Assembly (NCBI RefSeq): GCF_038396635.1
Contig: NZ_CP121687.1
Coordinates: 930,001 to 994,000, forward strand
Source of the DNA: Defluviitalea saccharophila
Lineage (GTDB): Bacteria > Bacillota > Clostridia > Lachnospirales > Defluviitaleaceae
Reading direction: 5' to 3'
Length of the DNA: 64,000 nucleotides
Part shown: positions 1 to 14,957 of the stretch, one piece after another
How the letters are laid out: each line of letters begins with the position of its first letter
How positions within the stretch are numbered: the stretch's first letter is position 1
Notes under the pieces: model-generated
Databases searched by the model: none
Told to the model about the DNA's origin: nothing
Seen by the model: only the letters and a program-made list of their open reading frames with translations
Program-made: the position numbers and the translations under genes

Positions 1-2841
1 CTTACAAAGTCTAAAGGGCTGTAAGCCAAACATCATAATCTGCCACATATGAATAAATTCAACGGTAGAACCGCTCAGTCTGGCGACAAAGCCTTTCCCA
101 TGAACTTTCTTATCCGGATTGACACTGCTTGCAATAAAAGAAGAATTCTCTAAGACACTTCTTCCGTAAACTTTTGGATCTAAAAAAGCTACACAAGCAG
201 ATTGAAAATCTTCTATAAAGGAATCGTACAGTCCACTTTTTAAAATTTCTAAAAGATATTTATATTCCATATGAAGCCATATGGACTCATTTTCCAGCCA
301 TCCCGGAGTAAAGGCTCTTGTTCTCCCGATTTCAAAAGAAGTATCCATAAGGGACTCATTGACTTTATACATGGTTAATTGGTCATCATATAAATTGCTT
401 TTTTTGATATAGGCATACACAGCTTTTTTATCTTCTATAGGCAGGGGCAGCTTTAGATATTTTACAGCACCCTCTAAAAACATGGGCATATTTTTAAGAG
501 TAAACTTTAAGGGTATTACCCTGCCTTCTTTAAATTCATACTCATCCATCTCATAATAAAAATAGGTTGGGCAAGGATTCTTGCTGAATACTTTTGCTCT
601 TTCAATACTATTTTTCAGAAATTCTATCCACTTATTTAGATGTTTTAGGCATTCTGCCGCTGATAATGCTTCTTCCCTTCCTTCTATGCCAAATAAAATT
701 TGTTCTCGGTAGGCTTCCTTCGCCTCGTTCATTTCATCCCATAGCTGCAGATGATTGTGGGACTCTTCAAACCGCTTAAGAGCCAATTCAATATTATTCA
801 TAAAAATCTTTACTTCTACAGGAAAAGTGATGGAACGGTTAAATTCTCCCACAGCATTTTGCATAAAAAGCAGCATACGAAGCAGCTCATAAGTTTCAGT
901 CATGGAAGAGCCCAAAATTCCCGGAAGCCCATTTAAGGCATCATACCACCCCGGTTTGCCCCCCTCCATTTCTATTCCTAAGCCATAAGGGTCCAATGAT
1001 GCAAATTTATTGACTGCTAAAATCATTAATTTTGTCATCAATGCGCTATAATAAATTTGCCCTTTTCCATAAGCTGTTCGTACTTTATCATGGGTCACAT
1101 CCTTTTTGATTACTTCATCCAAAAAGGTATATTGTCTTACTCCCTTTTCCGTTACTTGATACCGTTGGCTTCTGGGAAGAACTGCAGCCTTGGACTCGTG
1201 ATAGGTATAGCTTATATCGTCAAATAGTAAATGCTCTTTATCTTCCGGATATACCGAAAGGTAAGCTTCAATTAAATCCAGATTATATACCCAGTGATCC
1301 GTCCAGTAGCCTTCTCCAAAGGTTACATTGTCCTGCTCTTCTGAAAAGGAAATGATTTTTTCTAAGAATTCTTTAACATGCACCAATAATTCAATATCAT
1401 TCCTCTCAATAAATTTTATAATCCCTCCAGGAGTATAAGGGCTATTTAATTGATGAATAAGTTTTTCATAATCCCTGCTTGCCACCAAAGGTTCGATCTC
1501 TTTATTCTTAATCTTTGGCAATTGATAGGTTTTCATATTAATAATAAGGGGATTAAAGCCATCTAATTGAATCAAGTTATAAAACATTTTTATATTGATG
1601 TCTTTGACATAGGGGGTAAATAAAACATCGCAGCGTCTGTTTTGATTGATGTCTCTATAATTGCCGTTTCCTTGGGAATAATATTCCGGCTCCATGCAGA
1701 AATAATTATAGTCTCGCTCCAAATCCCCATGCTTTCTGGAATATATATAAAAGATCTTATCTTCTCCTAGTTGAATGGGGAAGCCTCCCCGAAGGACATT
1801 GTCAATATAGGTCTGGCGGCAATAAGCATCAAAAATCGGATTGGCAGTTTCCGTACCAATCACACTGCCTAAATCCTCTGTAAGCTTATAAGATGTTTCT
1901 CTCTTGTTTATAAAATAGCTTTTATCTAATTTTTGATTTAAAAACTTATATAATAAGGACTTATTTTCACACTGCCCGATAATGCTATATAAGGTTATAC
2001 TTTTTCCAGCTTCTAAAATAGCTTCTCTTCCAAAAAAACTGCAGGGCACTTGATTGCTGGTTGCCTGCTCCATTTCAAATAATTCTCTTAAAGGATACTT
2101 TTCAAATCCATAAGCCCTACGCATACTTGTGTCATAGGAAAATATTGCTGTAGGGTCTACAATACAGGGAAGTGTATTCCCGTCTTCTCCTATTGTAAAA
2201 TAAAAATTGCCCCCTTCTATCGGATGTACAACTGCTGTGTCACCGGTACTAAAACGCACTCTAAAATAAGGAACATCGTCTTTTATGTCTTCTACCTGCA
2301 TCCAGGCTTTGATCGTCTGGCCCATCATTTTCATCTGTTCCAGGTCTACACCATAGGGAAGAATAGCCGGCATACCGTCTAATAACTCTATCTTTTTAGA
2401 AACCGTATCTTCATTGGTAACAGTCAGTACACGGACCAATGCCCCTACACTTTCCTCAGGTAAGGTATAATAGAGAACATTGGTCTGCAGTTTTAACGCT
2501 TTGTTTCTTTCCTGTATCTCTAATTCATTGCTTCCTATATACATGCAATGCTCTGTTTCAGGATTTTGAAAGGGTTCATAAATTTTTCCATCCAGCTTTA
2601 TAAAGGTGCGAAATCCTAAAATACTTGTTAATTGATAAGACTGGTGGGCAGGATAGAATTCCATTATGGAATGATCCTTATCACGGATGCCAAAACTGGC
2701 TATTGCCTGCCCACGATTGACGTAAAAGCACCAGACAGGAATTCCCATTTCACCGCTTATTCCCGGTAAAAAGCTTGCAAAAGGAGATTGTTTCATATAG
2801 TTCTTGATTATAAATCTATTTCTGGAATCAAAGGGTTTCAT
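1..2841 (-). CDS. GH94-like glycoside phosphorylase, divergent, C-terminus cut by window edge
   Basis: The frame is open from ATG at 2841 to the left edge, giving 947 residues without a stop, so the C-terminus lies outside the window. The fold family is that of cellobiose and laminaribiose phosphorylases (an N-terminal beta-sandwich, then an alpha6/alpha6 barrel), judged from overall resemblance. The usual catalytic motif W-N-D appears here as GWYDALN (W632, Y633, D634), so the acid Asp is kept. The usual phosphate/sugar motif W-R-D appears as WTDHW (513-517), so the Arg is missing. It lies 21 bases after the MalG-type permease and is the last gene seen in the sugar operon. It could be a phosphorylase of a related GH family or a hydrolase-like variant; the substrate is unknown. 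Confidence 0.75.
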   Translation of the reverse strand, partial: MKPFDSRNRFIIKNYMKQSPFASFLPGISGEMGIPVWCFYVNRGQAIASFGIRDKDHSIMEFYPAHQSYQLTSILGFRTFIKLDGKIYEPFQNPETEHCMYIGSNELEIQERNKALKLQTNVLYYTLPEESVGALVRVLTVTNEDTVSKKIELLDGMPAILPYGVDLEQMKMMGQTIKAWMQVEDIKDDVPYFRVRFSTGDTAVVHPIEGGNFYFTIGEDGNTLPCIVDPTAIFSYDTSMRRAYGFEKYPLRELFEMEQATSNQVPCSFFGREAILEAGKSITLYSIIGQCENKSLLYKFLNQKLDKSYFINKRETSYKLTEDLGSVIGTETANPIFDAYCRQTYIDNVLRGGFPIQLGEDKIFYIYSRKHGDLERDYNYFCMEPEYYSQGNGNYRDINQNRRCDVLFTPYVKDINIKMFYNLIQLDGFNPLIINMKTYQLPKIKNKEIEPLVASRDYEKLIHQLNSPYTPGGIIKFIERNDIELLVHVKEFLEKIISFSEEQDNVTFGEGYWTDHWVYNLDLIEAYLSVYPEDKEHLLFDDISYTYHESKAAVLPRSQRYQVTEKGVRQYTFLDEVIKKDVTHDKVRTAYGKGQIYYSALMTKLMILAVNKFASLDPYGLGIEMEGGKPGWYDALNGLPGILGSSMTETYELLRMLLFMQNAVGEFNRSITFPVEVKIFMNNIELALKRFEESHNHLQLWDEMNEAKEAYREQILFGIEGREEALSAAECLKHLNKWIEFLKNSIERAKVFSKNPCPTYFYYEMDEYEFKEGRVIPLKFTLKNMPMFLEGAVKYLKLPLPIEDKKAVYAYIKKSNLYDDQLTMYKVNESLMDTSFEIGRTRAFTPGWLENESIWLHMEYKYLLEILKSGLYDSFIEDFQSACVAFLDPKVYGRSVLENSSFIASSVNPDKKVHGKGFVARLSGSTVEFIHMWQIMMFGLQPFRLCK

Positions 2842-2862
2842 AAATAATACCTCATTTCAGTT

Positions 2863-3687
2863 TTAACCTTTTATTGCCCCGGCTATTAGGCTCTGCTGCA
2901 CCTGATTACTTAGCAAGAAATAAATAAGAATTGTGGGTAAAGTGGCAATCACCATTCCTGCACCGATTAACCCCCAATTGGTCGTATACTGTCCTGCAAA
3001 GGACATAATCCCAACAGGAAGTGTGCGATAAACATCGCTGTCTACCAAAGTATTGGCAAACATCAACTCGTTCCAGGTTCCTAAAAAGGTAAAGATAGAA
3101 GCTGTAGCCAGGGCAGGCTTAATCATTGGAAGCATAATGGTAACAAAACATCTGAATACTCCACAGCCGTCAATATAAGCAGCTTCTTCCATCTCCCTGG
3201 GAATCCCCTTGTAAAATCCTGTGAGGATCATAACGCTCATGGGAATACCAAAGGCAATATAGGGTATTAATAGTCCGAGATAGCCACCCTTTAAGCCAAG
3301 CTTATCCATGACTTGAAATAATGGAAGCAGGGCTGCTTGAGTGGGTACCATAATCCCTAAAGTAAAGATAGAAAAAACAAGGTCCTTGAGTTTCCATCTC
3401 ATTCTGGCAATAGCATAGGCTGACATAGAAGTAAGGACACCAACAACTAAAACAGTCAATCCGGTATAGATCATGGAATTTATAAAATACCTCAGGATTC
3501 CTCCATCCTTTAGGGCGTTTGTATAGTTTTCCCAAAGCCAAAACTGTGGAAGGCCCAGTACATTATCCCCAAATATTTCGTTATTCGTTTTTAAAGAAAA
3601 AGTAATGAGCCAATATAGTGGAAACAACTGACCAAAGGCAATGATGAGTAAAATTGCAAATAGGACTTTTTTCTTTAACTTTTTCAT
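2863..3687 (-). CDS. Sugar ABC transporter permease, MalG/CUT1 type
   Basis: This 274-residue inner-membrane protein has about six hydrophobic segments. It carries the EAA loop of carbohydrate permeases near residues 165-185 (EMEEAAYIDGCGVFRCF), which docks the ATPase. The start ATG follows GGAGGGGCGGAT. It is the second permease of a CUT1 importer, with the MalF-type partner 11 bases upstream and a phosphorylase-like gene 21 bases downstream. No ATPase gene is in the window, as is common for CUT1 systems that share one MsmK/MalK-type ATPase. The substrate is probably an oligosaccharide, inferred from the neighbouring phosphorylases. Confidence 0.92.
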   Translation of the reverse strand: MKKLKKKVLFAILLIIAFGQLFPLYWLITFSLKTNNEIFGDNVLGLPQFWLWENYTNALKDGGILRYFINSMIYTGLTVLVVGVLTSMSAYAIARMRWKLKDLVFSIFTLGIMVPTQAALLPLFQVMDKLGLKGGYLGLLIPYIAFGIPMSVMILTGFYKGIPREMEEAAYIDGCGVFRCFVTIMLPMIKPALATASIFTFLGTWNELMFANTLVDSDVYRTLPVGIMSFAGQYTTNWGLIGAGMVIATLPTILIYFLLSNQVQQSLIAGAIKG

Positions 3688-3698
3688 ATCCGCCCCTC

Positions 3699-4592
3699 CT
3701 ACACTACTGATGCATTTTCTTCTGCCCGTTTAAACAATTTGCTGATTATGAGGCTAAATAATAAACATTCAACGACAATGAAGAAAGCTTGGGCACTGCC
3801 ATATCCGTAAAGGCTTTTTCTAAACAGATTATTATACATTAAGGTAGCAGGAACCTCACTGGCATGATTTGGTCCTCCCCCGGTCATAACATAGATTAAG
3901 TCAAAAGATCTAAGGGACCCTGTTAAAGAAAACACTAGACAGGTTTTAATGACCGGTGTCAATAATGGAATTGTGATTTTAAAGGTAGTCATTAATTTTG
4001 AAGCTCCGTCAATTTGGGCTGCCTCGTAGTAATCCGGAGAAATTGATTTGATTCCGGCATAGAAAATAAGCATATGGTAACCGATATACTGCCAAACCGC
4101 CGGAACTACCGTTGCCAGAAAAGCCGTCTTTGGTTCGGATAACCATGAATATTCAAAGTCCTTTGGTCCTAAAGCGCGAATAATAATATTTAATAATCCG
4201 TAATCACTTCTAAAAATTCTCATCCACAACTGACCGATTACCATGCTGGAAATAACCACCGGTATGAAATAAACCGTACGGAAAAATTTCTCCCCCTTTA
4301 CTCCCCTGGAAAGAATCAAAGCCAGCACAAAAGATATGGGAAGTTGAATAAAAATTGATGCTCCTGCAAGAATAAAGGAATTTTTTAAAGCGTTTGGAAA
4401 ATAGCGATCCTCTGTAAATAATTTAATATAATTGCCAAGACCCAAAAAATCCATTTTTCCGATACCGTCATAATCGAACAAACTATAAATACCTGTTGTA
4501 ATTAATGGAACAACTACAAAACCTAAGAAAATCAATAAAGTCGGTAAAATAAATACAGCTATATACCGCTTTTTGCCAAGTATTCTATCCAT
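3699..4592 (-). CDS. Sugar ABC transporter permease, MalF/CUT1 type
   Basis: An integral membrane permease of the CUT1 family, with six hydrophobic segments and a C-terminal EAA loop (YYEAAQIDGASKLMTTF). I place the start at the ATG at 4592, where AGGGGG precedes it at good spacing. A longer open frame to 4649 would add 19 residues with no ribosome site and no hydrophobic character of its own. It forms the membrane channel with the MalG-type partner just downstream and follows the solute-binding lipoprotein gene. The order binding protein, MalF, MalG is the standard one. Confidence 0.92.
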   Translation of the reverse strand: MDRILGKKRYIAVFILPTLLIFLGFVVVPLITTGIYSLFDYDGIGKMDFLGLGNYIKLFTEDRYFPNALKNSFILAGASIFIQLPISFVLALILSRGVKGEKFFRTVYFIPVVISSMVIGQLWMRIFRSDYGLLNIIIRALGPKDFEYSWLSEPKTAFLATVVPAVWQYIGYHMLIFYAGIKSISPDYYEAAQIDGASKLMTTFKITIPLLTPVIKTCLVFSLTGSLRSFDLIYVMTGGGPNHASEVPATLMYNNLFRKSLYGYGSAQAFFIVVECLLFSLIISKLFKRAEENASVV

Positions 4593-4704
4593 GCTGTAAC
4601 CCCCTATGATATGTCTCAAAACCCATATTTTAAACATGGGGATTACCACTACTAAAAAGCGATAATCCCCAATAATGACTTAAGCTTAATTCAATTGCTT
4701 TTTA

Positions 4705-6045
4705 CTATTTATTAATCGCTGCGATATGTTCTTCGATGAATGCTTCGGTATCTGCTCCTGCTGCAAATAAGGTTTGAACTTGTTCATTATGAATGGTTGC
4801 TGGTTCGCTGTCTAAAGAAGTATCCCAAGCAAGTACTCCTGTTTCCCCTTCACTTAATAAATCTTTGATTTGTACAAATAATGGATTTAATTTGCTTTCG
4901 TCAAATTCACCAACCCAACCTGAAAAACCTGTACCGGTTTCATAAGCTGCTTTGCCCATTTTTTCATTTATAAATATTGCAAAATCTGCTGCTTCTGCAG
5001 GATATTTCGTTTCTTTATTTACCCAGAAGGATTCTATAAATCCACCGCAGTAATCGGAAGCATTGCCTTTTCCAGAAATCATAGGAATCTTAACGGCTAC
5101 TACACTAGCTGGATCGATCGTTGCTGTAGCATCGGTATAAACCTGGTTAGCAAACCAGCTGCCCATAAGTCTCATAGCAGTTTTTCCTGTGATAAATGCA
5201 CTGTTTGCATCATCATTTCCAACTTCAAGAGGATTCTTACCAAATGCACCTGCATTATAAAGTTCTACTACCTTGTCTGCTGCTTCTTTGTAGCCTTCTG
5301 CTGAGAAAGGAACTTCTCCGTTTAACATGGCGTTAATATTAGCGCCTCCAACTTCTCTTAATGCCAATGCCTGATAAATAAATGCTGCATTCCAACCGTC
5401 TTTTGCCCCTGCAGCCAATGGAGTAACGCCATCTAATGCAGATAATTTTTTACATGCATCTAATAATTCATCATAGGTCGTTGGAATTTTAGCGCCTGCT
5501 TGTTCAAATAAGTCTTTATTGCAGAATAAAGTCATATACCAGGAGAACATAGGAAGAGAATAAGTCTTGCCGTTATATTCGAAAGCTCCTGTGGATCCTG
5601 GAAGAATTTTAGCTTTTATTTCATCTGTTAAATAGTCATCCAGTGGCAATAATTTATCTGCATTCACAAGCTTTCTGGCTGTTCCTGCACCCCAGTAGTA
5701 GAATACATCAATACCGCTTGCTGTTCCTGCAAACTCTGCAGAGATTTTGGTCTTATAAGCTTCGGTGTCTAAGGTTTCCGTATTAATTTTTACATTGGGA
5801 TGAGCTGCTTCATATTCTGCTACTGCTGCTTCATATAGTTTTTTCAGTTCGTTAGTATCGTTGGACCATTGATGCCATACATTTAAAGTAATTTGTTCTC
5901 CTCCAGATTGATCATTGGAGGTTCCTGAACTTGTTTCAGTCTTTGTTTCCGTTGATTCCGTTGTTGTGGTGCTACTTCCGCAGCCAATTAATCCAAATAC
6001 CATCACTGCTGTCAGTAAAAACGCCATGATTCTTTTCAATTTCAT
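4705..6045 (-). CDS. Sugar-binding lipoprotein of CUT1 ABC importer (SBP family 1)
   Basis: This extracellular substrate-binding protein has 446 residues. Residues 1-22 form a lipoprotein signal ending in the lipobox LIGC, followed by a Ser/Thr-rich linker (about 23-50) that tethers it to the membrane. The body resembles MalE/UgpB-like family 1 binding proteins, with the typical start LNVWHQWSN and the central FAGTASGIDVFYYWGAG. AGGGGAGAAGG precedes the ATG. It is the first gene of the importer operon, behind its own promoter (6117-6145) and downstream of an MCP that may read its sugar-bound form. The exact sugar is not evident. Confidence 0.93.
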   Translation of the reverse strand: MKLKRIMAFLLTAVMVFGLIGCGSSTTTTESTETKTETSSGTSNDQSGGEQITLNVWHQWSNDTNELKKLYEAAVAEYEAAHPNVKINTETLDTEAYKTKISAEFAGTASGIDVFYYWGAGTARKLVNADKLLPLDDYLTDEIKAKILPGSTGAFEYNGKTYSLPMFSWYMTLFCNKDLFEQAGAKIPTTYDELLDACKKLSALDGVTPLAAGAKDGWNAAFIYQALALREVGGANINAMLNGEVPFSAEGYKEAADKVVELYNAGAFGKNPLEVGNDDANSAFITGKTAMRLMGSWFANQVYTDATATIDPASVVAVKIPMISGKGNASDYCGGFIESFWVNKETKYPAEAADFAIFINEKMGKAAYETGTGFSGWVGEFDESKLNPLFVQIKDLLSEGETGVLAWDTSLDSEPATIHNEQVQTLFAAGADTEAFIEEHIAAINK

Positions 6046-6116
6046 ATCCTTCTCCCCTTTTTAAATAATATAAATATCACATCTTTCAAACCAAGCATGC
6101 TTCAGTTGTTACTTAA

Positions 6117-6145
6117 AGTATATGATAGGAACGCTTTTCACTCAA
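6117..6145 (-). promoter_or_regulatory. Sigma-A promoter of the sugar ABC operon, with nearby palindrome
   Basis: On the minus strand TTGAGT (6145-6140) and TATACT (6122-6117) are separated by 17 bases, about 70 bases before the binding-protein gene. Just downstream of the start region lies the perfect 10-base palindrome AAGCATGCTT (6093-6102), a candidate operator. YesN/AraC regulators usually bind upstream direct repeats, and I could not fix such a site with confidence. Confidence 0.65.
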
Positions 6146-6207
6146 TTTAATATTTTGAGGTAAAAGGTAACTATTTTTACATATTGAAAAATAATTACAT
6201 TAAAGCT

Positions 6208-6256: not shown

Positions 6257-8346
6257 CTAAATCTTGAATCGAGATAAAGTACTATTTAAACTTTCCACAA
6301 CTGACATAAGATTGTTTGCCAATACGGATAATCGCTCTGCGGAGCTTGCTTGTTCCTGGCTGGTTGCAGTAATTTCTTCAATGGCTGCCGCACCTTCCTC
6401 TACTATGGCTGCAATATGGACAATAGCCTCCACCGATTGATTTTTCTGTAATTCAATATCATGGATCTTCTTCATTATATCTTCAATCCGCTGAATCATA
6501 TTCTGCATACATTCTGCCATTTTATTAAAAGCATTATTTGTTTCAAAAACAATGGATTTTTGTTCTTCAAATATCTTATCGGATTCTTCAACAACCGATA
6601 CGGCTTGCTTCGTTTTTTCTTGAATATTAGAAATAATTTTGTTAATCATTACTGTAGCATCCTTAGTTCCCATAGCCAGTTTCCGGATTTCATCTGCAAC
6701 AACTGCAAAACCTTTTCCACTTTCTCCAGCCCTGGCCGCCTCTATGGCAGCATTCAATGCAAGAAGATTGGTCTGCTCACTGATTCCTGCTATGACATTA
6801 ACAACATGAATCACTTCTTTTGTTTCTTCACTTAACTCTTGAATTTCTCCATGAATGGTATGGGAAGATTCCAATGCAGTCTTTGTTTTTTCATTAAGAT
6901 GCTCCATCGTACTGGATGCATAATCCCTTGAACTTTCCGTTTCTTCAATAATGTCCCTCACATCTTCTATTTCTTCAATAATACCGTTAATATTTTTAGC
7001 TAAACTCTCCATTAACATATTGGTATGTTCAGTTTTTTTGGCTTGTTTCATAGAGCCTTCTGCCAGCTCATTAATTGCAGTGGAAACCTGTACTGCTGCA
7101 GCTGCTGATCGTTCTGAAGTGTTCTTTATAACGTCCGTATCCTGTTCTACTCTTTTTACTACAGTATCTGTTTCTATAATTAAATTTCTGATGTTTTCTA
7201 TCATCTTATTAAAGCTATTGGATAACTTCCCTATTTCGTTTTTTCCTTGAACAGGACAGCTTACAACGAGATTGCCCTGTTCTACTTTGCTCATTAAAGC
7301 CATAATCATTTTTAATGGATTAGAGATGCTAAAGGAAATCGTCATCCCTACAACAACAGCAACTATAATACATAAAGCTGCTACCAGTACGGTTCCCTGT
7401 TTTACAGCTTCCATGTCTTTCATTAACGCTGAAACAGGTTCTTTGGTTATGATTTTCCAGCCATTCTTAGTCATTGCGTAGCTTATAACATAATTGGAAT
7501 CTGTAAAGTAACCTGATGTATTTTCTCCATATATCTTATCGAGGAAGTCATCTTCTAACACAGTACCTAATTTCTCTTCATCAATACTGGAGACAATCTC
7601 ATTATTTTCATTGATTATAAAAATCTCTCCGCTGCCTAGATTGGCTTTTTCTAGTATTGAACGAATTCCTTTACTATGAATACTAATAACTATACCGCCA
7701 ATAGATTTACCTGTACTCAGATCATCCATTTGTGTAATCAAATATATCTGTTCATAGGAATCGTATAATCCGGTAATCCACAAATTTTTTCCACCAGAAC
7801 TGTTAATAAGCTCTAATAAATGTTGAATCTGTTCATTTTTATTGATGGTTTTTCCTCCAGTTGAGATAGAGACAAACCCTGAACCAAAGCTTTCTCCATT
7901 ATTTTTTATGATATGAGCTGTCTTAATATCATTGTTCGAAATTACTATAGAAACAATATCACTTTCTATTTCTTTAATAATTTTTGCTTTATCAAAGCTG
8001 CTTATCGAATCTAAATCTCTTAAATCTTTCATCAACTTTAAATTGGTTTTAACCAGTGTTTGACTTCTTTCAAACTCTTCTAATTTAGTATCAATATTCA
8101 TGGCAATCTGTTCAACCATTTTCCCAGAATAAGATCCTACTTTGTTTTTAACAGTTTGTTCTGCATTCAAATATGAAAAAGTTCCAACAATGGTTAAAGG
8201 CAAAATGCTTAGAATGATAAAAGTTATAATCAGCTTTTGAGCTATTCCTACATTATTTTTAAGTCTTAGCTTAAAATTAAGAGTTCGTTTTTTTTTAAGA
8301 GTTCTGATATATTTTTTGAACTTAATTTATCAATTTTTTTGTACAT
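6257..8346 (-). CDS. Methyl-accepting chemotaxis protein, reading frame interrupted at an A9 tract
   Basis: A membrane chemoreceptor that signals to CheA/CheW. A strong ribosome site (AGAGGGGG) precedes ATG at 8346, but that frame stops after 26 codons at 8266. The chemoreceptor frame is open from just after an A9 tract (8288-8296) to 6257. A -1 shift, or one more A, joins the two into a normal N-terminus: a charged start, then a membrane helix around [20 protein letters not shown]. After it come a Cache-like outer domain, a second helix ([16 protein letters not shown]), a HAMP domain and the signalling tip [21 protein letters not shown] downstream TTG start at 8203 would delete the first helix. 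The cause could be a base-calling error, phase variation or slippage. It sits between the regulator and the sugar-binding protein. Confidence 0.85.
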
Positions 8347-8389
8347 GGTATCCCCCTCTTAGGAAAGAATATTTATACATCTTAATTTG

Positions 8390-8416
8390 AAGCATTTATA
8401 CTCACTATAAATGCTT
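8390..8416. repeat. Second copy of the 27-base palindrome, between regulator and MCP genes
   Basis: Arms AAGCATTTATA and TATAAATGCTT enclose a 5-base loop (CTCAC), with the same arms as the terminator at 6214-6240. The outer base of one arm is part of the regulator stop codon. No T-run follows on the minus strand, so termination here should be weak; it may be a partial terminator, processing site or operator. Confidence 0.7.
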
Positions 8417-10005
8417 TATAACTCTTTTGGCTTTCTATACTCTTTAATAGTTACCCCTACATGTTTTTTAAAACAGATACTAAAGTAGTGGGGATCTTTT
8501 ATGCCTACTCGCTCTGCTATCTCATATACCTTTAAATCCGTTGTGTTGAGGAGACGAATGCTTTCTTCCATTCTCTTTTTCGTAATATAACTAATGAGGG
8601 ATTCCTTCATTTCTTGCTTAAAGACACGGCTTAGATAAGAATCACTGGTATATATTTTAGAAGCTACAAATGCTAAACTTAACTGAGGGTCATACAGATA
8701 CTGGTTAATCACTTCAAGAGCCTGCTCAATCACTTGATTTCCTTTCTTCGGTCGAGTTTTTTTATGAAAATCCATGATGGCCTGCAAAGAATTGATAATA
8801 ACTTCTTTCATATGTTCAATGGAGTCAATACTGTCAATCAACTCGGAAAAATTCTTTAAGCTCTCCAAATTCGTCAGAGTTTTCCCTAGTTTATGGAGAG
8901 TTAGTTCTCCTTTCGTTAAAATATATACGGTCATGAATTTTAACCATTGAAGATCCATGTTTCCTGATTCCCAAATACGCTGCATATAAAGTTCTACATA
9001 GTCTTCTACCTTTGATTCCAAACAATTTTGTACGGAAAAAATAAAATCTTCCCAATCCAAGTCCGATAAATCAATATTTTTCTTGTATTTTAAATAATCT
9101 TCATAACGAATGCAGCGATTTTGCCCCAGAATAATTCTGGCATTTAAAGCCTTCTCCGACTCTGTGAAAGCTTTATGAATGCCTTCGAATCCTATATGCA
9201 CATTACTAATCCCTATATTAACCGGCATCAGCAGTAAAGAATTAATTTCACTTTCTAATAGCTCCATGTTTCTTAGAAGCAATTCATAATCCTCATTGGA
9301 GAAATACAAAATTACATTTCCTAAATAATGAACAAAGGAAACGACGGGCTTTAGCTCTATTTCTTCAATCAGAGCAACCACATCTTTGCCCAATTTTAAT
9401 TTCTTTTCTTCGTTTATTTCCTGCCGGTACTCCAAATGTATATTACAGCATATGCTTTGATCTATCAGACTTTGGTATCCGTACATCTTCAGCTTATTGA
9501 TTCCCTCCTGCTCCGATACACGATTTTCTACCAAACGCTGCAGGAAGCTTTCTTTCACAATATTCATATTCCGATTTAAAGATTCTTTTAATTGATTGAC
9601 TGCCCTTCTTTCTTCCTCGGATTTAAGAATCTCTTCTTTTAATTTGGTAATTGTACTCTCCAAATTTTCAATATCTATGGGCTTTAACAAAAAGTCCTCT
9701 ACCCCAAGCTTAACCGCTTGCCTTGCATATTCGAAGTCACGATAGCCCGTGATAATGACAAACTTTATGTTTCTATCTTTAAATTCTTCTAAAGCCTTAG
9801 CAACAAATTGAAGACCATTCATATTGGGCATATTGATATCCGTTAATACGATATCCGGGGGACATATTCTCATACTCTCCAAAGCTTCTTGTCCTGAACC
9901 CGCTTCACAGATAATCTCGAACCCATTATTTTCCCAGTCATATCCTTTTCTAATCAATACTCTTTCTAATTTTTCATCATCCAATATAAGCACTTTAATT
10001 CCCAC
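8416..10005 (-). CDS. Response regulator, YesN type (REC plus AraC DNA-binding domain)
   Basis: This cytoplasmic transcription regulator has 529 residues. Residues 1-120 are a receiver domain with the acidic pair in ILDDEK and the phospho-acceptor in DIVLTDINMPNMNG. A central linker region follows. The last 100 residues carry two helix-turn-helix motifs of the AraC family (SLAFVASKIYTSDSYLSRVFKQ and VYEIAERVGIKDPHYFSICFKK). The start is GTG at 10005 behind AAGGAG. It overlaps the end of the sensor kinase gene by 11 bases, so the two are one pair. It most likely switches on the adjacent sugar importer and phosphorylase genes. Confidence 0.93.
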   Translation of the reverse strand: MGIKVLILDDEKLERVLIRKGYDWENNGFEIICEAGSGQEALESMRICPPDIVLTDINMPNMNGLQFVAKALEEFKDRNIKFVIITGYRDFEYARQAVKLGVEDFLLKPIDIENLESTITKLKEEILKSEEERRAVNQLKESLNRNMNIVKESFLQRLVENRVSEQEGINKLKMYGYQSLIDQSICCNIHLEYRQEINEEKKLKLGKDVVALIEEIELKPVVSFVHYLGNVILYFSNEDYELLLRNMELLESEINSLLLMPVNIGISNVHIGFEGIHKAFTESEKALNARIILGQNRCIRYEDYLKYKKNIDLSDLDWEDFIFSVQNCLESKVEDYVELYMQRIWESGNMDLQWLKFMTVYILTKGELTLHKLGKTLTNLESLKNFSELIDSIDSIEHMKEVIINSLQAIMDFHKKTRPKKGNQVIEQALEVINQYLYDPQLSLAFVASKIYTSDSYLSRVFKQEMKESLISYITKKRMEESIRLLNTTDLKVYEIAERVGIKDPHYFSICFKKHVGVTIKEYRKPKEL

Positions 10006-11782
10006 AATATTCGTCTCCTTTTATTACCTTTAGTCTTATTGTTATTTCTGTGCCCGAACCGATTTCGCTGGTAACGGTAACTGGAGATTCTATATTATAG
10101 TATAATGAAATCCTTTGTATTAAGCTGTAAAGACCAAATCCGGATTTGTTTGTTCTGGTTTTTCCCTCTAATACTTCCTTAATTCGTTCTTCATTCATGC
10201 CCATACCGTCATCAGAAATAATAAAAATCATTTCATCCTCGTCAAGGTATCCTTTTAGATGAATATTTCCTTCCCCTTCCCGTTCTTTAATGCCATGGTA
10301 CACTGCATTTTCTACGACAGGCTGAAGAATTAATTTAAGCATGGGCAGGGGCAACATTCTGTCTTCAATATCGTAATGGATTTTTATACGATTATCGTAG
10401 CGAATATTTAATATGGTGATATAATTTTTAATACAGGCTATTTCATCCGCTACGGTTACAACATCTTTCCCACTGTTTAAACTGTTGCGATAAAAATTGC
10501 CTAAAGCTTGAATCAGCTTAAAACAATTTTTATTATCATTCAGTAAGGCAAGGGCTGACGCCGCATCTAAGGTATTATAAAGAAAATGGGGATTAATTTG
10601 AGCATGGATAATATCCAGCTCATTTTTCATAATAATTTTCTCTTCCTGCTTAATTTTTTCAATTAATTCCTGCAAAGAATAAATCATATGATTAAAAACC
10701 TGCTTTAAAGATATAATTTCATTCTCGTACCCCTCTTCAATGGGCATAGGAACAAATTCACCGCTCTCTACCATCTGCATATGTCTTTGAACCTTGGTAA
10801 GCGGAGAGAAAATAAGTCTTGTCAAGACAATCACGCAAGCAATGATAATAATTAAATTAAGGGCAACAAATGCTATAAGAATGGATTTGTAGGCATTACT
10901 AAGTTCTTGCTTGCTGTTCATATTTAGAATACCTACTAAACTCCAGTCCTGAATACCTAAATCTCTTTGTACCAGCATGGCATCCGTCCCTAGAAATTTG
11001 ACAGACTGATAACTGGGACTTGAAGTGATTTTTCCTTTTAGAAGCTCTCCTATTTCATCCTTATTTTCCGAGGGTGGTATAATATAATTCCCTCGAGCAT
11101 CTACAATGCAGAAAGTAGAATGATCGTTTTCAGTAACTTCATCAAAATATTTTTGAAAAACAGATTCATCAATTACTAACAATAACGTTGCTAAATATTT
11201 GTAATCGTTTTTATCTGCTATCTCTCTAACATAGGTAATATAATTAAGGGTCGGTCTGCTGGGGTACTGAATAATGTTTTCGCTTTTATGAATAAAAAAA
11301 CCGTCTCCCTTTGACTTTAACATCTGATGATACCATTCAGTATTACGAAAGGATTTGGTATGTACGGCAATGGGACCAACTTTGTAGGATTTGTAATAGT
11401 TGTCGTAGGAGTCAATCAGTATGACACTTGAAATATATTTTCCTGATAAAATCATGTTTAATAAGCTATTTTGAATCGTTAATAAAGTTGACGGAGCAAT
11501 ACTTTGATGATTAACAGATGCCAGGGCTTGCTGAATATCCTTATCAAAATAAATCATGTTGGAGGACTGTGTAATATTATCAAAAATTACGTCCAGGTTA
11601 CCCTTTAAGGCATTAATGGTCTGCAACCCCGCTTCTCCGACTTCTCTCTCCGTATTTTCTTTAAAGATAGCATAAATAGTGGAAATCCCGATAATAAAGG
11701 ACAGCACTAAAAGCGTAATATAAATGACGATAATTTTAGTTCTGATTTTTAAGCATTTAATGTAATTGATTATTTTATCCAA
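9995..11782 (-). CDS. Sensor histidine kinase, YesM/LytS type
   Basis: A membrane kinase partner of the YesN regulator. It has an N-terminal helix (KIIVIYITLLVLSFIIGIS), an extracellular Cache-like sensor of about 250 residues, a second helix (SILIAFVALNLIIIIACVIVL), a HAMP domain, the His_kinase motif INPHFLYNTLD with the phosphorylated His, and a C-terminal ATPase domain (QPVVENAVYHGI, DDGMGM, GFGLYS). I place the start at TTG 11782 behind GGTGAT; an open frame to TTG 11824 has no clear ribosome site, and no ATG fits. It follows the cupin gene by some 65 bases. Such kinases usually sense a sugar or a sugar-loaded binding protein. Confidence 0.9.
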   Translation of the reverse strand: MDKIINYIKCLKIRTKIIVIYITLLVLSFIIGISTIYAIFKENTEREVGEAGLQTINALKGNLDVIFDNITQSSNMIYFDKDIQQALASVNHQSIAPSTLLTIQNSLLNMILSGKYISSVILIDSYDNYYKSYKVGPIAVHTKSFRNTEWYHQMLKSKGDGFFIHKSENIIQYPSRPTLNYITYVREIADKNDYKYLATLLLVIDESVFQKYFDEVTENDHSTFCIVDARGNYIIPPSENKDEIGELLKGKITSSPSYQSVKFLGTDAMLVQRDLGIQDWSLVGILNMNSKQELSNAYKSILIAFVALNLIIIIACVIVLTRLIFSPLTKVQRHMQMVESGEFVPMPIEEGYENEIISLKQVFNHMIYSLQELIEKIKQEEKIIMKNELDIIHAQINPHFLYNTLDAASALALLNDNKNCFKLIQALGNFYRNSLNSGKDVVTVADEIACIKNYITILNIRYDNRIKIHYDIEDRMLPLPMLKLILQPVVENAVYHGIKEREGEGNIHLKGYLDEDEMIFIISDDGMGMNEERIKEVLEGKTRTNKSGFGLYSLIQRISLYYNIESPVTVTSEIGSGTEITIRLKVIKGDEYCGN

Positions 11783-11848
11783 GGATATCACCACTATTTC
11801 ATAAGAATACTGTATTTGTTTCAAATAAATGTCTCTAATTTTAGTATA

Positions 11849-12250
11849 CTATAAATTTTGAAGCATTTTCAGTATTTTCTTTTCCTGATCAGTTAATTTT
11901 ATAATTGGAGAATTTGCATCATTGGTTAGTCTATTCTCTACAATCAAAACGCTGGTATTTTTAGAAAGGGTGTGGGTGTGCCAAACACCTTTTTTAACAG
12001 TATAGATTTTTAAAGGCTCCATATGCCAGGCTTTGATTTCTCCTATCTTCTCTCCATCTCCTCCGGTAAAAAGAGTGCAGTCCCCTTCCAGTAATACAAA
12101 GACTTCATCGGTCTCCGTATGCTTTTGCATGGTTGCGATATGATCAATTTCTAATTCTTCACAGTATCTTAGAATCGCTACTCGCCACTCCATGTAATCT
12201 ACCATGGGTTTATAGCCTTCCCCTTTAAATTCACTCATTTCTATGTCCAT
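11849..12250 (-). CDS. Small single-domain cupin protein
   Basis: A 133-residue protein with one cupin beta-barrel. Motif 1 is seen as KHTETDEVFVLLEG (about 43-56) and motif 2 as GVWHTHTLSKNTSVLIVEN, with His residues able to bind a metal. GGAGGGGG precedes the ATG. It begins 13 bases after the GH94 phosphorylase stop and precedes the sensor kinase, so it is part of the sugar locus. A role in sugar isomerisation or epimerisation, or in sensing, is possible; the sequence alone does not say which. Confidence 0.85.
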   Translation of the reverse strand: MDIEMSEFKGEGYKPMVDYMEWRVAILRYCEELEIDHIATMQKHTETDEVFVLLEGDCTLFTGGDGEKIGEIKAWHMEPLKIYTVKKGVWHTHTLSKNTSVLIVENRLTNDANSPIIKLTDQEKKILKMLQNL

Positions 12251-12263
12251 ATATTCCCCCTCC

Positions 12264-14957
12264 TTACTTCCCCAAGGTTACTATAATTTTATAGTTCTTA
12301 TTCTTTGGCAAACTTTCTATCACTTTTCGTTTGATGATAAAACTATCTTCAATGAAATCCTCTCCTAAATTGCCTTCTATCTTGATCACCCGATACTCCC
12401 CATAATCCAGGCCTTCTTCGTTAACATATTCAACATAAAAATGTCGCTCAGCGAAATCAAAGGAAATACCCGCTCTATGTTTTTCATTAAATTGGCTTTT
12501 TAACAGTCTAGGCTTGAAAGTTAAGTCTCCCATTTTACCAACTATTCCAAAGACTTGATGGATAAGGGTCAGCATCAGCCAGCTGGCTGCACCGGTTAGA
12601 TAATGATACATACCTCTGCCTTTTCCATCGAAATACTCTGGGATACCAGGATAAATTCGACTTTTCTCAAAGTCCATGCTGTGGGAATACAGAGCATCTA
12701 TAACCTTAAACCCTTCCTTTACAAATCCCCGCGAATAAAGGGCATAGGCATACATCACTGCCATATGACAAAAGACTGCACCATTTTCTTTATGGCCATA
12801 GGCAAAACCAAACATTCTTCCAAGGTTTAAATTGACTTCTCGAAAATCCGTGTTGAGGCGGTACCCTCCAATTTCCCTGGCATACAAATATTGATCTACA
12901 GCTTTTGTAATGGCTTTAACCTGTTCATCCGTTGCAGTCCCGGACATAATTGTAAACACTTGACTGGGAAGCATCATGCGAACACCTAAAGGGTGAACAC
13001 CTTCCACTCGCTGTCCCAAATTATCATAGTATCCATTAAACCAAAAGGCATCTTTACCGTCGCTAATCCATTCTGTGTTTCTTATATGTTCTTTTATAAA
13101 CTGTCCCATGCCTTTTAAAGTTTTAACTAAAGCCTTTGCAGGTATGGATATCGTATCTCCCGATATCTTATGTTTTGTTGACAGGCAGTATTCCATAAGG
13201 ATGGATTGTTTTTTCTTACAATCTCCATAAGCATCTTCATTGCCTATTAAAACTTCCATTTCTTTTGCCAGTTCTATCGTAGCAAATCCTTTGTTCTTTA
13301 AAACTTCTATCAAATCGGCTAGTGTTTCCAGATTGCTGCCGTATAATGCGGTAAAGGTAACACTCTCTCCTTTATCCCTTGCCATGTCAAGGGCATCGTT
13401 CCAATCCGCTCCCCGAAGTCTAATATGGTTATGTTCTCCCACATCGTAGAAGGCAGTTAAATGCTGCATCAGTAAATGTTCCAGTATACTACCCAAATAG
13501 GGCTTATTATCTTTAGTTAAGCAAAGCTTCCCCTGTTCTTCTTCCCAGAGACTATCTTTTTGCTCCCCTCGTACCCCTTGCATATCCTTAAAGTAAGGAA
13601 CTTTTTCTAATAAAAATTCTATATCTCCGCTCTGCTGTATGTATAAATGGGTGGTTATAAGAGGCCATACCCCATGATCCATCCAAACTCTTGTAATATT
13701 ATTGCGGTCGGCAATGAACTCCCCTCGATTCTTGCCGATAATGGTGGCATTGGTCCCATCCATTCTTACCCCCTGGAAATTTTCTTTAAGCAAGGTTCTA
13801 ACTTCTCCAGGATCCATCAATAATAGTGCCAAACAATCCTGCCATAAATCTCTCCAACCTCTGCCCCCTTTTCCGTAGTCATGGTGGGGCAAGAAGGAAC
13901 ATCCGTAGATTCTGCGTAAAATCGGCTGAAGGGTCACCCAATGCATCCAATGATTGAATTTCTCATCCCCAGTTTTGAATCTTACATTTAACTGGTCTTT
14001 CCAGTATGCTTTCATTTCTTCAAATGCCTTATTATAGGCCTCTTCTGATAAATATTTTTCTCCGTACAGAATAAAATCTTCCTTAGAATTTCCATATCCT
14101 AAGGCAATAATATATACTTTGGATTCCCCGGGCTGTAGTACTACTTCCTCAAAGCAAAGACCTCCAAAGGCTTCGTAGCCGTTGATTTTATCTCCCGACT
14201 TCATTGGTTTCAAACTATCGTCCTGTAATGCTCTCGGATTTTCAAAACTGCCTCCTTCTCCTATAAAAGCATCCACAGTAGGATAGAATTTTGAAGGCAA
14301 TACATTGCCATTGCCACCTAGTACTCCATAAACGATTTCATTGATTTTATGACCTTTTTCATCAAAGGTTAAGGTTGGATTGACTATAATGCCCCTATCT
14401 AAAACCTCGATACGATGAAGTAGGGAAGTTACATGTCGATGATCACGAATATTATCCGCTGAGCGGCAATAAAGGGGAATTGCTGCTACGGGCTCCAAGG
14501 TGATGGCTTCAAGTCCTATATTCGTAAGCTCCACCTTCATCAGCTCAACTTTGTCATGGCTTGTTGGTACAAATGAAGTAATGACTCCCTTTAAGCCAAA
14601 TGCTTTGGATATTCGAGTTACTTTATGCCATAGAAATCCTGCTTCCAATTGGGTTTCTTCTTTATCTTTGGAGAATTTTTTTGCCTGCTGCCAGGCAGAT
14701 TTACCTGTTACCGACCAAATAGATGTATGATTGATTTTGCACCAAAAATTACGACTGCTTTTATTATTATGCAAATCCTCGCTGCTAACGGGCGACAACA
14801 AAAACGTATTCTGACTTGTCTTACTGTCTCCGGAAAGTTCCGGAGTAATGCTGCTCATAACCCCTGCCATATTTGCCAGAGGAAAATACAGACAGCTGAT
14901 TTGGTCCGGCTGATTCAGTAGAAAGCTTCCTTCTTCGGTAAAACAATATTTTTGCAT
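12264..14957 (-). CDS. GH94 glycoside phosphorylase (cellobiose/laminaribiose phosphorylase-like)
   Basis: This cytoplasmic enzyme has 897 residues, normal length for the family. It cleaves a beta-glucoside with phosphate to give alpha-glucose 1-phosphate and a shortened sugar. The barrel carries GRGWRDLWQD (R369, D370, the phosphate/substrate pair of GH94) and RGADWNDALD (W519, D521, matching the catalytic Trp and acid Asp known from chitobiose phosphorylase). The overall pattern looks closer to laminaribiose-type enzymes than to classical cellobiose phosphorylase, but specificity cannot be fixed by eye. The start ATG follows AGGAGA. It is the first gene of the locus, with the cupin 13 bases on. 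Confidence 0.9.
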   Translation of the reverse strand: MQKYCFTEEGSFLLNQPDQISCLYFPLANMAGVMSSITPELSGDSKTSQNTFLLSPVSSEDLHNNKSSRNFWCKINHTSIWSVTGKSAWQQAKKFSKDKEETQLEAGFLWHKVTRISKAFGLKGVITSFVPTSHDKVELMKVELTNIGLEAITLEPVAAIPLYCRSADNIRDHRHVTSLLHRIEVLDRGIIVNPTLTFDEKGHKINEIVYGVLGGNGNVLPSKFYPTVDAFIGEGGSFENPRALQDDSLKPMKSGDKINGYEAFGGLCFEEVVLQPGESKVYIIALGYGNSKEDFILYGEKYLSEEAYNKAFEEMKAYWKDQLNVRFKTGDEKFNHWMHWVTLQPILRRIYGCSFLPHHDYGKGGRGWRDLWQDCLALLLMDPGEVRTLLKENFQGVRMDGTNATIIGKNRGEFIADRNNITRVWMDHGVWPLITTHLYIQQSGDIEFLLEKVPYFKDMQGVRGEQKDSLWEEEQGKLCLTKDNKPYLGSILEHLLMQHLTAFYDVGEHNHIRLRGADWNDALDMARDKGESVTFTALYGSNLETLADLIEVLKNKGFATIELAKEMEVLIGNEDAYGDCKKKQSILMEYCLSTKHKISGDTISIPAKALVKTLKGMGQFIKEHIRNTEWISDGKDAFWFNGYYDNLGQRVEGVHPLGVRMMLPSQVFTIMSGTATDEQVKAITKAVDQYLYAREIGGYRLNTDFREVNLNLGRMFGFAYGHKENGAVFCHMAVMYAYALYSRGFVKEGFKVIDALYSHSMDFEKSRIYPGIPEYFDGKGRGMYHYLTGAASWLMLTLIHQVFGIVGKMGDLTFKPRLLKSQFNEKHRAGISFDFAERHFYVEYVNEEGLDYGEYRVIKIEGNLGEDFIEDSFIIKRKVIESLPKNKNYKIIVTLGK

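Follow-up and report, generated by a model that had tools for sequence, protein, structure and literature searches.

The gene at the low end of the window, as we call the whole stretch of 64,000 nucleotides analysed here (C1:930001-994000 of a host genome that forms one contig of 3,014,560 bases), almost certainly encodes a full-length, ordinary GH161-type beta-1,3-glucan phosphorylase. The activity is assigned by homology, and this degree of confidence applies to the family, the predicted mechanism and the role in the surrounding gene run taken together. The open reading frame singled out at window 1-2841 (minus strand) in an earlier note on this DNA is real; it is a single open frame that has 947 codons within the window and continues past its low end. 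The full gene was completed from the host genome (L005:2728-5841, minus strand) and encodes 1037 amino acids, with an ATG start, one stop codon, at the end, and a frame intact over 1037 codons. The window lacks the final 273 bases of the gene, which encode the 90 C-terminal residues and the stop codon. A near-identical copy (99.6% protein identity) is present in a public metagenome-assembled genome (MAG) labelled Candidatus Epulonipiscium sp. (L006), which is a second genome of the same species and whose contig begins inside the chemoreceptor gene.

The GH161 gene is the last of nine genes that are read on the minus strand from window 14957 to 1, with a GH94 gene as the first:

1..2841, minus strand: predicted GH161 beta-1,3-glucan phosphorylase, first 947 codons (9qqk 1164 bits; structural Z 45.7/43.8)
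2863..3687, minus strand: ABC sugar permease, MalG/GlcU-like (BPD_transp_1; best NCBIfam matches all below cut-offs)
3699..4649, minus strand: ABC sugar permease, UgpA/MalF-like (BPD_transp_1; best NCBIfam matches all below cut-offs)
4705..6045, minus strand: sugar ABC transporter substrate-binding protein (SBP_bac_1 126.8 bits)
6257..8203, minus strand: methyl-accepting chemotaxis receptor, N-terminus apparently split between frames (MCPsignal 121.6, HAMP 38.9 bits)
8416..10005, minus strand: AraC-type response regulator (Response_reg 78 bits, HTH_18 63.1 bits)
9995..11824, minus strand: sensor histidine kinase with dCache, HAMP, His_kinase and HATPase domains (HAMP 23.1 bits, below the cut-off of 25)
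11849..12250, minus strand: small cupin-like protein (below Pfam and NCBIfam cut-offs)
12264..14957, minus strand: GH94 laminaribiose phosphorylase (6ggy 1013 bits over 8-897; PF17167 113.3 bits, cut-off 27)

Spacing in the run is -11 to 55 bases, with 211 and 212 bases on the two sides of the chemoreceptor gene. The GH94 partner thus stands at the opposite end of the run from GH161 and does not adjoin it, and the importer consists of a binding protein and two permeases with no ATPase gene in the run. The chemoreceptor frame (window 6257-8350, minus strand) starts within an apparent first membrane helix, with a plausible N-terminus further upstream in a different frame, which points to either a disrupted gene or an error in sequencing.

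Among sequences of solved structures, phmmer matched the protein to the GH161 chain 9qqk/9sr2 (1164.4 bits, residues 8-1034) and to 9h8v (1163.5 bits), which was deposited as 'cellobiose phosphorylase' and, as aligned here, closely resembles 9qqk in sequence; both match the query over nearly its whole length. A profile (A1) was built from 19 GH161 proteins of the fetched loci, the query and its near-identical copy included; it is a shallow alignment that contains L006, L010 and L012 and does not represent 19 independent species. Searched with this profile, 9qqk scored 1509 bits, GH149 6hq6 119 bits and the laminaribiose phosphorylase 6ggy 25.6 bits. The earlier note had proposed a neighbouring or unclassified family and had named GH94, GH149 and GH161 models, together with a structure prediction of the full protein, as checks; the neighbouring family can now be given as GH161, and the suggestion of an unclassified one falls away. 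The characterised GH161 members named in PMC8140972 are the Thermosipho africanus and Paenibacillus polymyxa enzymes. A literature search on GH161 found no paper on the solved GH161 structures among the records listed.

An AlphaFold model built from A1 (pLDDT 80.3, pTM 0.84) had its best matches in the GH161 structures 9gy9 (Z 45.7, rmsd 2.8, 996 aligned residues, 47% identity) and 9qqk (Z 43.8, rmsd 3.1, 978 aligned residues, 48% identity), with TM-scores of 0.91-0.92 to GH161 structures. The Z-scores fell to 32.8 for GH149 6hq8 and 27.1 for the laminaribiose phosphorylase 6gh3, and Foldseek gave the same family order of GH161, GH149 and laminaribiose phosphorylase. Model pLDDT is below 50 at residues 49-66, 196-206, 370-385, 392-394, 630-632, 840-852 and 901-920, several of these stretches lying at or beside active-site positions.

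The likeness to known enzymes is graded in the same way. GH161 entries (9gy9, 9qqk/9sr2, 9h8v) match over the full length, and 9qqk and 9h8v have the motifs GYW(S/T)DHW and PGWYDALNG in common with the query. GH149 Pro_7066 (6hq6/6hq8) has a related fold at 20% identity, with R-D, W-x-D and GYWxDH motifs, but carries W-N-D where the query has W-Y-D and, according to PMC6771811, two extra domains. GH94 laminaribiose phosphorylases (6ggy, 6gh3) have a related fold and aligned motifs, and a relative is encoded in the gene run, but identity is 14%; these enzymes act on a disaccharide, whereas the GH161 enzyme PapP of Paenibacillus polymyxa acts on longer chains (PMC6484121). The query is likened to PapP by family and by the description in that paper. 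What is new here is one more GH161 sequence, with nothing defining that differs from the GH161 entries compared.

Active-site positions were located with two profile alignments, A1 against the GH149 structure 6hq6 and, by hhalign, A1 against a profile of 11 laminaribiose phosphorylases (A2; probability 99.5%, E 2e-22). The string GWYDALN is present in the GH161 frame at residues 631-637 (632-636 had been given earlier). In the second alignment WYDALN is opposite WNDALD, and in the first PGWYDALNG of the A1 consensus is opposite PEWNDANNA, so that D634, the putative catalytic Asp of this W-x-D loop, falls opposite the Asp of W-N-D in both laminaribiose phosphorylases and GH149. The earlier pairing of WYD with W-N-D is thus borne out, as is the retention of the acid Asp, which occurs in 19 of 19 GH161 sequences. 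In PMC6771811, R-D and W-N-D motifs are named in Pro_7066 and the Asp of W-N-D is the predicted catalytic residue. W-Y-D at 632-634 corresponds to W-N-D, whose middle residue is variable; because position 633 varies among the 19 sequences (Y in 12, N in 4, C in 3), W-Y-D is common in GH161, and the identical WYD is carried by 9qqk.

This variable residue would fit a weaker form of the earlier suggestion, in which an enzyme of GH161 fold has moved in specificity towards a different linkage or a different substrate length. Specificity is unreadable from sequence alone, and PapP also takes beta-linked disaccharides with other linkages as acceptors (PMC6484121). Such drift is nevertheless very improbable, given that W-Y-D is found as in 9qqk, whose entry title describes a complex with a beta-1,3 glucooligosaccharide, and that a laminaribiose phosphorylase is encoded in the same run.

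The W-R-D motif had been read in the earlier note as altered to WTDHW (513-517), with loss of the Arg expected to contact phosphate or sugar. This argument fails because WTDHW was paired with W-R-D. In the hhalign alignment GNYRDINQN lies opposite RGWRDLWQD, making Y395-R396-D397 the counterpart of W-R-D, and YWTDHW (512-517) lies opposite VWMDHG; in the GH149 alignment GNFRD is opposite GNWRD and GYWSDH opposite GYWGDH. YWxDH is, as judged from these alignments, a motif in its own right, which GH149 6hq6 has in full and GH94 laminaribiose phosphorylase retains in part, and the predicted donor-site Arg is present as Y/F-R-D. Residues R396, D397, W513, D515, H516, W517, D634, E850 and H857 are each found in 19 of 19 aligned GH161 sequences, with variation at positions 395 (F 15, Y 4) and 514 (T 7, S 6, V 5, I 1). 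E850 is opposite E724 and H857 opposite H731 of laminaribiose phosphorylase; the alignment with 6hq6 ends short of H857, which may be the phosphate-recognising histidine. According to PMC6484121, which supports placing GH161 in clan GH-Q, conservation across GH94, GH149 and GH161 extends to the catalytic Asp, to residues of the donor site and to a histidine that recognises phosphate. A stretch around 373-377 (ERD) was also considered as the R-D motif and rejected; at position 377 the 19 sequences have D (15) or E (4), and both alignments put the motif at 395-397.

It is therefore extremely unlikely that the enzyme is catalytically impaired through loss of the Arg contacting phosphate or sugar, since R396-D397 pairs with the R-D of both GH94 and GH149 enzymes and occurs in all 19 sequences, and the frame is intact over its 1037 codons. 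An altered or dead active site was dropped after the two profile alignments and the column counts; GH161 is a characterised family in which the differences noticed earlier are normal. It is equally hard to credit a divergent GH94 or GH149 member or an unclassified family, for which a score of 89.7 bits with NF058639, the GH149 model of NCBIfam, and the distant profile match to laminaribiose phosphorylases might speak, given that this score is far below the cut-off of 1150, that a Pfam scan of the protein, GH94 models included, returned no family at E<=1, and that 9qqk gained more than ten times the bits of 6hq6 in the A1 search; membership in GH94 or GH149 was dropped on these scores. The four PF17167 matches of the genome are located in two genes other than the GH161 gene.

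The GH161 enzyme has a likely role in stepwise phosphorolysis of beta-1,3-gluco-oligosaccharides, by analogy with PapP, which is active on these substrates (PMC6484121). The oligosaccharides would be bound by the substrate-binding protein and imported through the two permeases, energized by an ATPase encoded elsewhere. In the cytoplasm, the predicted location, the inverting enzyme would shorten the chains by one glucose per turn and release alpha-glucose-1-phosphate, with D634 as general acid and R396/D397, E850 and H857 holding the donor glucose and phosphate, roles that are carried over from other members. With an acceptor of at least two sugars, as expected from PapP, GH161 would stop at the disaccharide, and the GH94 enzyme would split laminaribiose to glucose-1-phosphate and glucose. 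Further use of glucose-1-phosphate could involve the phosphoglucomutase/phosphomannomutase-type genes, which are present in the genome (three matches to PGM_PMM_I, PF02878).

GH161 genes beside ABC transporter genes, and GH94-GH161 tandems in some species, are described in PMC6484121, and ABC transporter and GH94 neighbours are found here as well. The ATPase gene is absent from most such loci according to the same paper, which puts forward the idea of a shared ATPase; PF17912, a MalK-type ATPase domain, has a single match in the host genome, at C1:1532040 and remote from the gene run, which fits this idea. The outcome is a correction of a motif misreading and otherwise one more GH161 enzyme and one more run of GH161, GH94 and importer genes in the described pattern. 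Hydrolysis by beta-glucosidase is a possible alternative route, given four GH3-type matches elsewhere in the genome. About 2 kb separate the one remaining GH94-family gene of the genome from a GH3 gene (G000:C1:2407879-2411834), and the two may form a second beta-glucoside locus.

Of the 17 GH161 loci counted, 11 had a laminaribiose phosphorylase gene in their fetched flanks (the window's own, L007, L008, L011, L012, L014, L032, L033, L034, L035 and L037). The other six (L009, L031, L036, L038, L039 and L040) had none in the fetched flanks, which differ in length among loci, so that a more distant one is possible there. The 17 include L012, whose gene reaches the contig end and may lack the last few residues, L011, L039 and L040, with short flanks, and both L036 and L040, which come from one genome; left out were L006, L010 (on a contig of 6.4 kb), L013 and L029 (whose genes are truncated where the contig stops) and L041 (which has remnants only). 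In G250 (L032), where the fetched stretch stops within the GH94 gene, the same genes occur in the same order minus the chemoreceptor; in G162 (L035) the same genes, again minus the chemoreceptor, occur in a different order. GH161 is uncommon. It was matched in nine of 391 genomes drawn from the class, the host included, and in four of the eight genomes searched from the family: two genomes of the species, the host being one of them, a genome from a different genus and a same-genus genome that holds remnants only.

Chemoreceptor genes beside GH161 occur also at L009:7731-9845 and L014:13882-16047, with 25-29% identity to that of the window; such genes are numerous, and adjacency at these two loci may be due to chance.

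The same-genus genome (G001, L041) keeps the gene run apart from the chemoreceptor, including the importer, the two-component pair and a laminaribiose phosphorylase that is 87% identical. Only 342 bases separate its response regulator and binding protein, and the receptor is therefore absent there. Its GH161 survives only as pieces, all inside a stretch of about 780 bases (L041:11417-12195), that match residues 292-449, 748-854 and 1002-1037, which suggests loss of the oligosaccharide step.

No GH16 match was found in the host genome by a search that gave a match in six of 14 control genomes; searches for GH81 and GH64 found none either and were uninformative, as 0 of the 14 controls matched either family. 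It may be speculated, with considerable doubt, that the gene run serves scavenging by a bacterium with no GH16 laminarinase match, in which beta-1,3-gluco-oligosaccharides released by other organisms would be sensed by the two-component pair and the chemoreceptor and imported. Since the same-genus species keeps the laminaribiose branch and the importer with GH161 remnants, the substrate might then be shared between species by chain length.

The importer block of the second genome of the species (binding protein and both permeases, L006:431-3776) has 96.6% DNA identity to G001 L041:8042-11406, and the G001 block is about 83% identical to window 2855-6201. The L006 GH161 gene differs from that of the window at 11 of 3114 bases and the next gene at 1 of 1194. 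Either exchange between species or a chimeric MAG would account for the L006 importer block.
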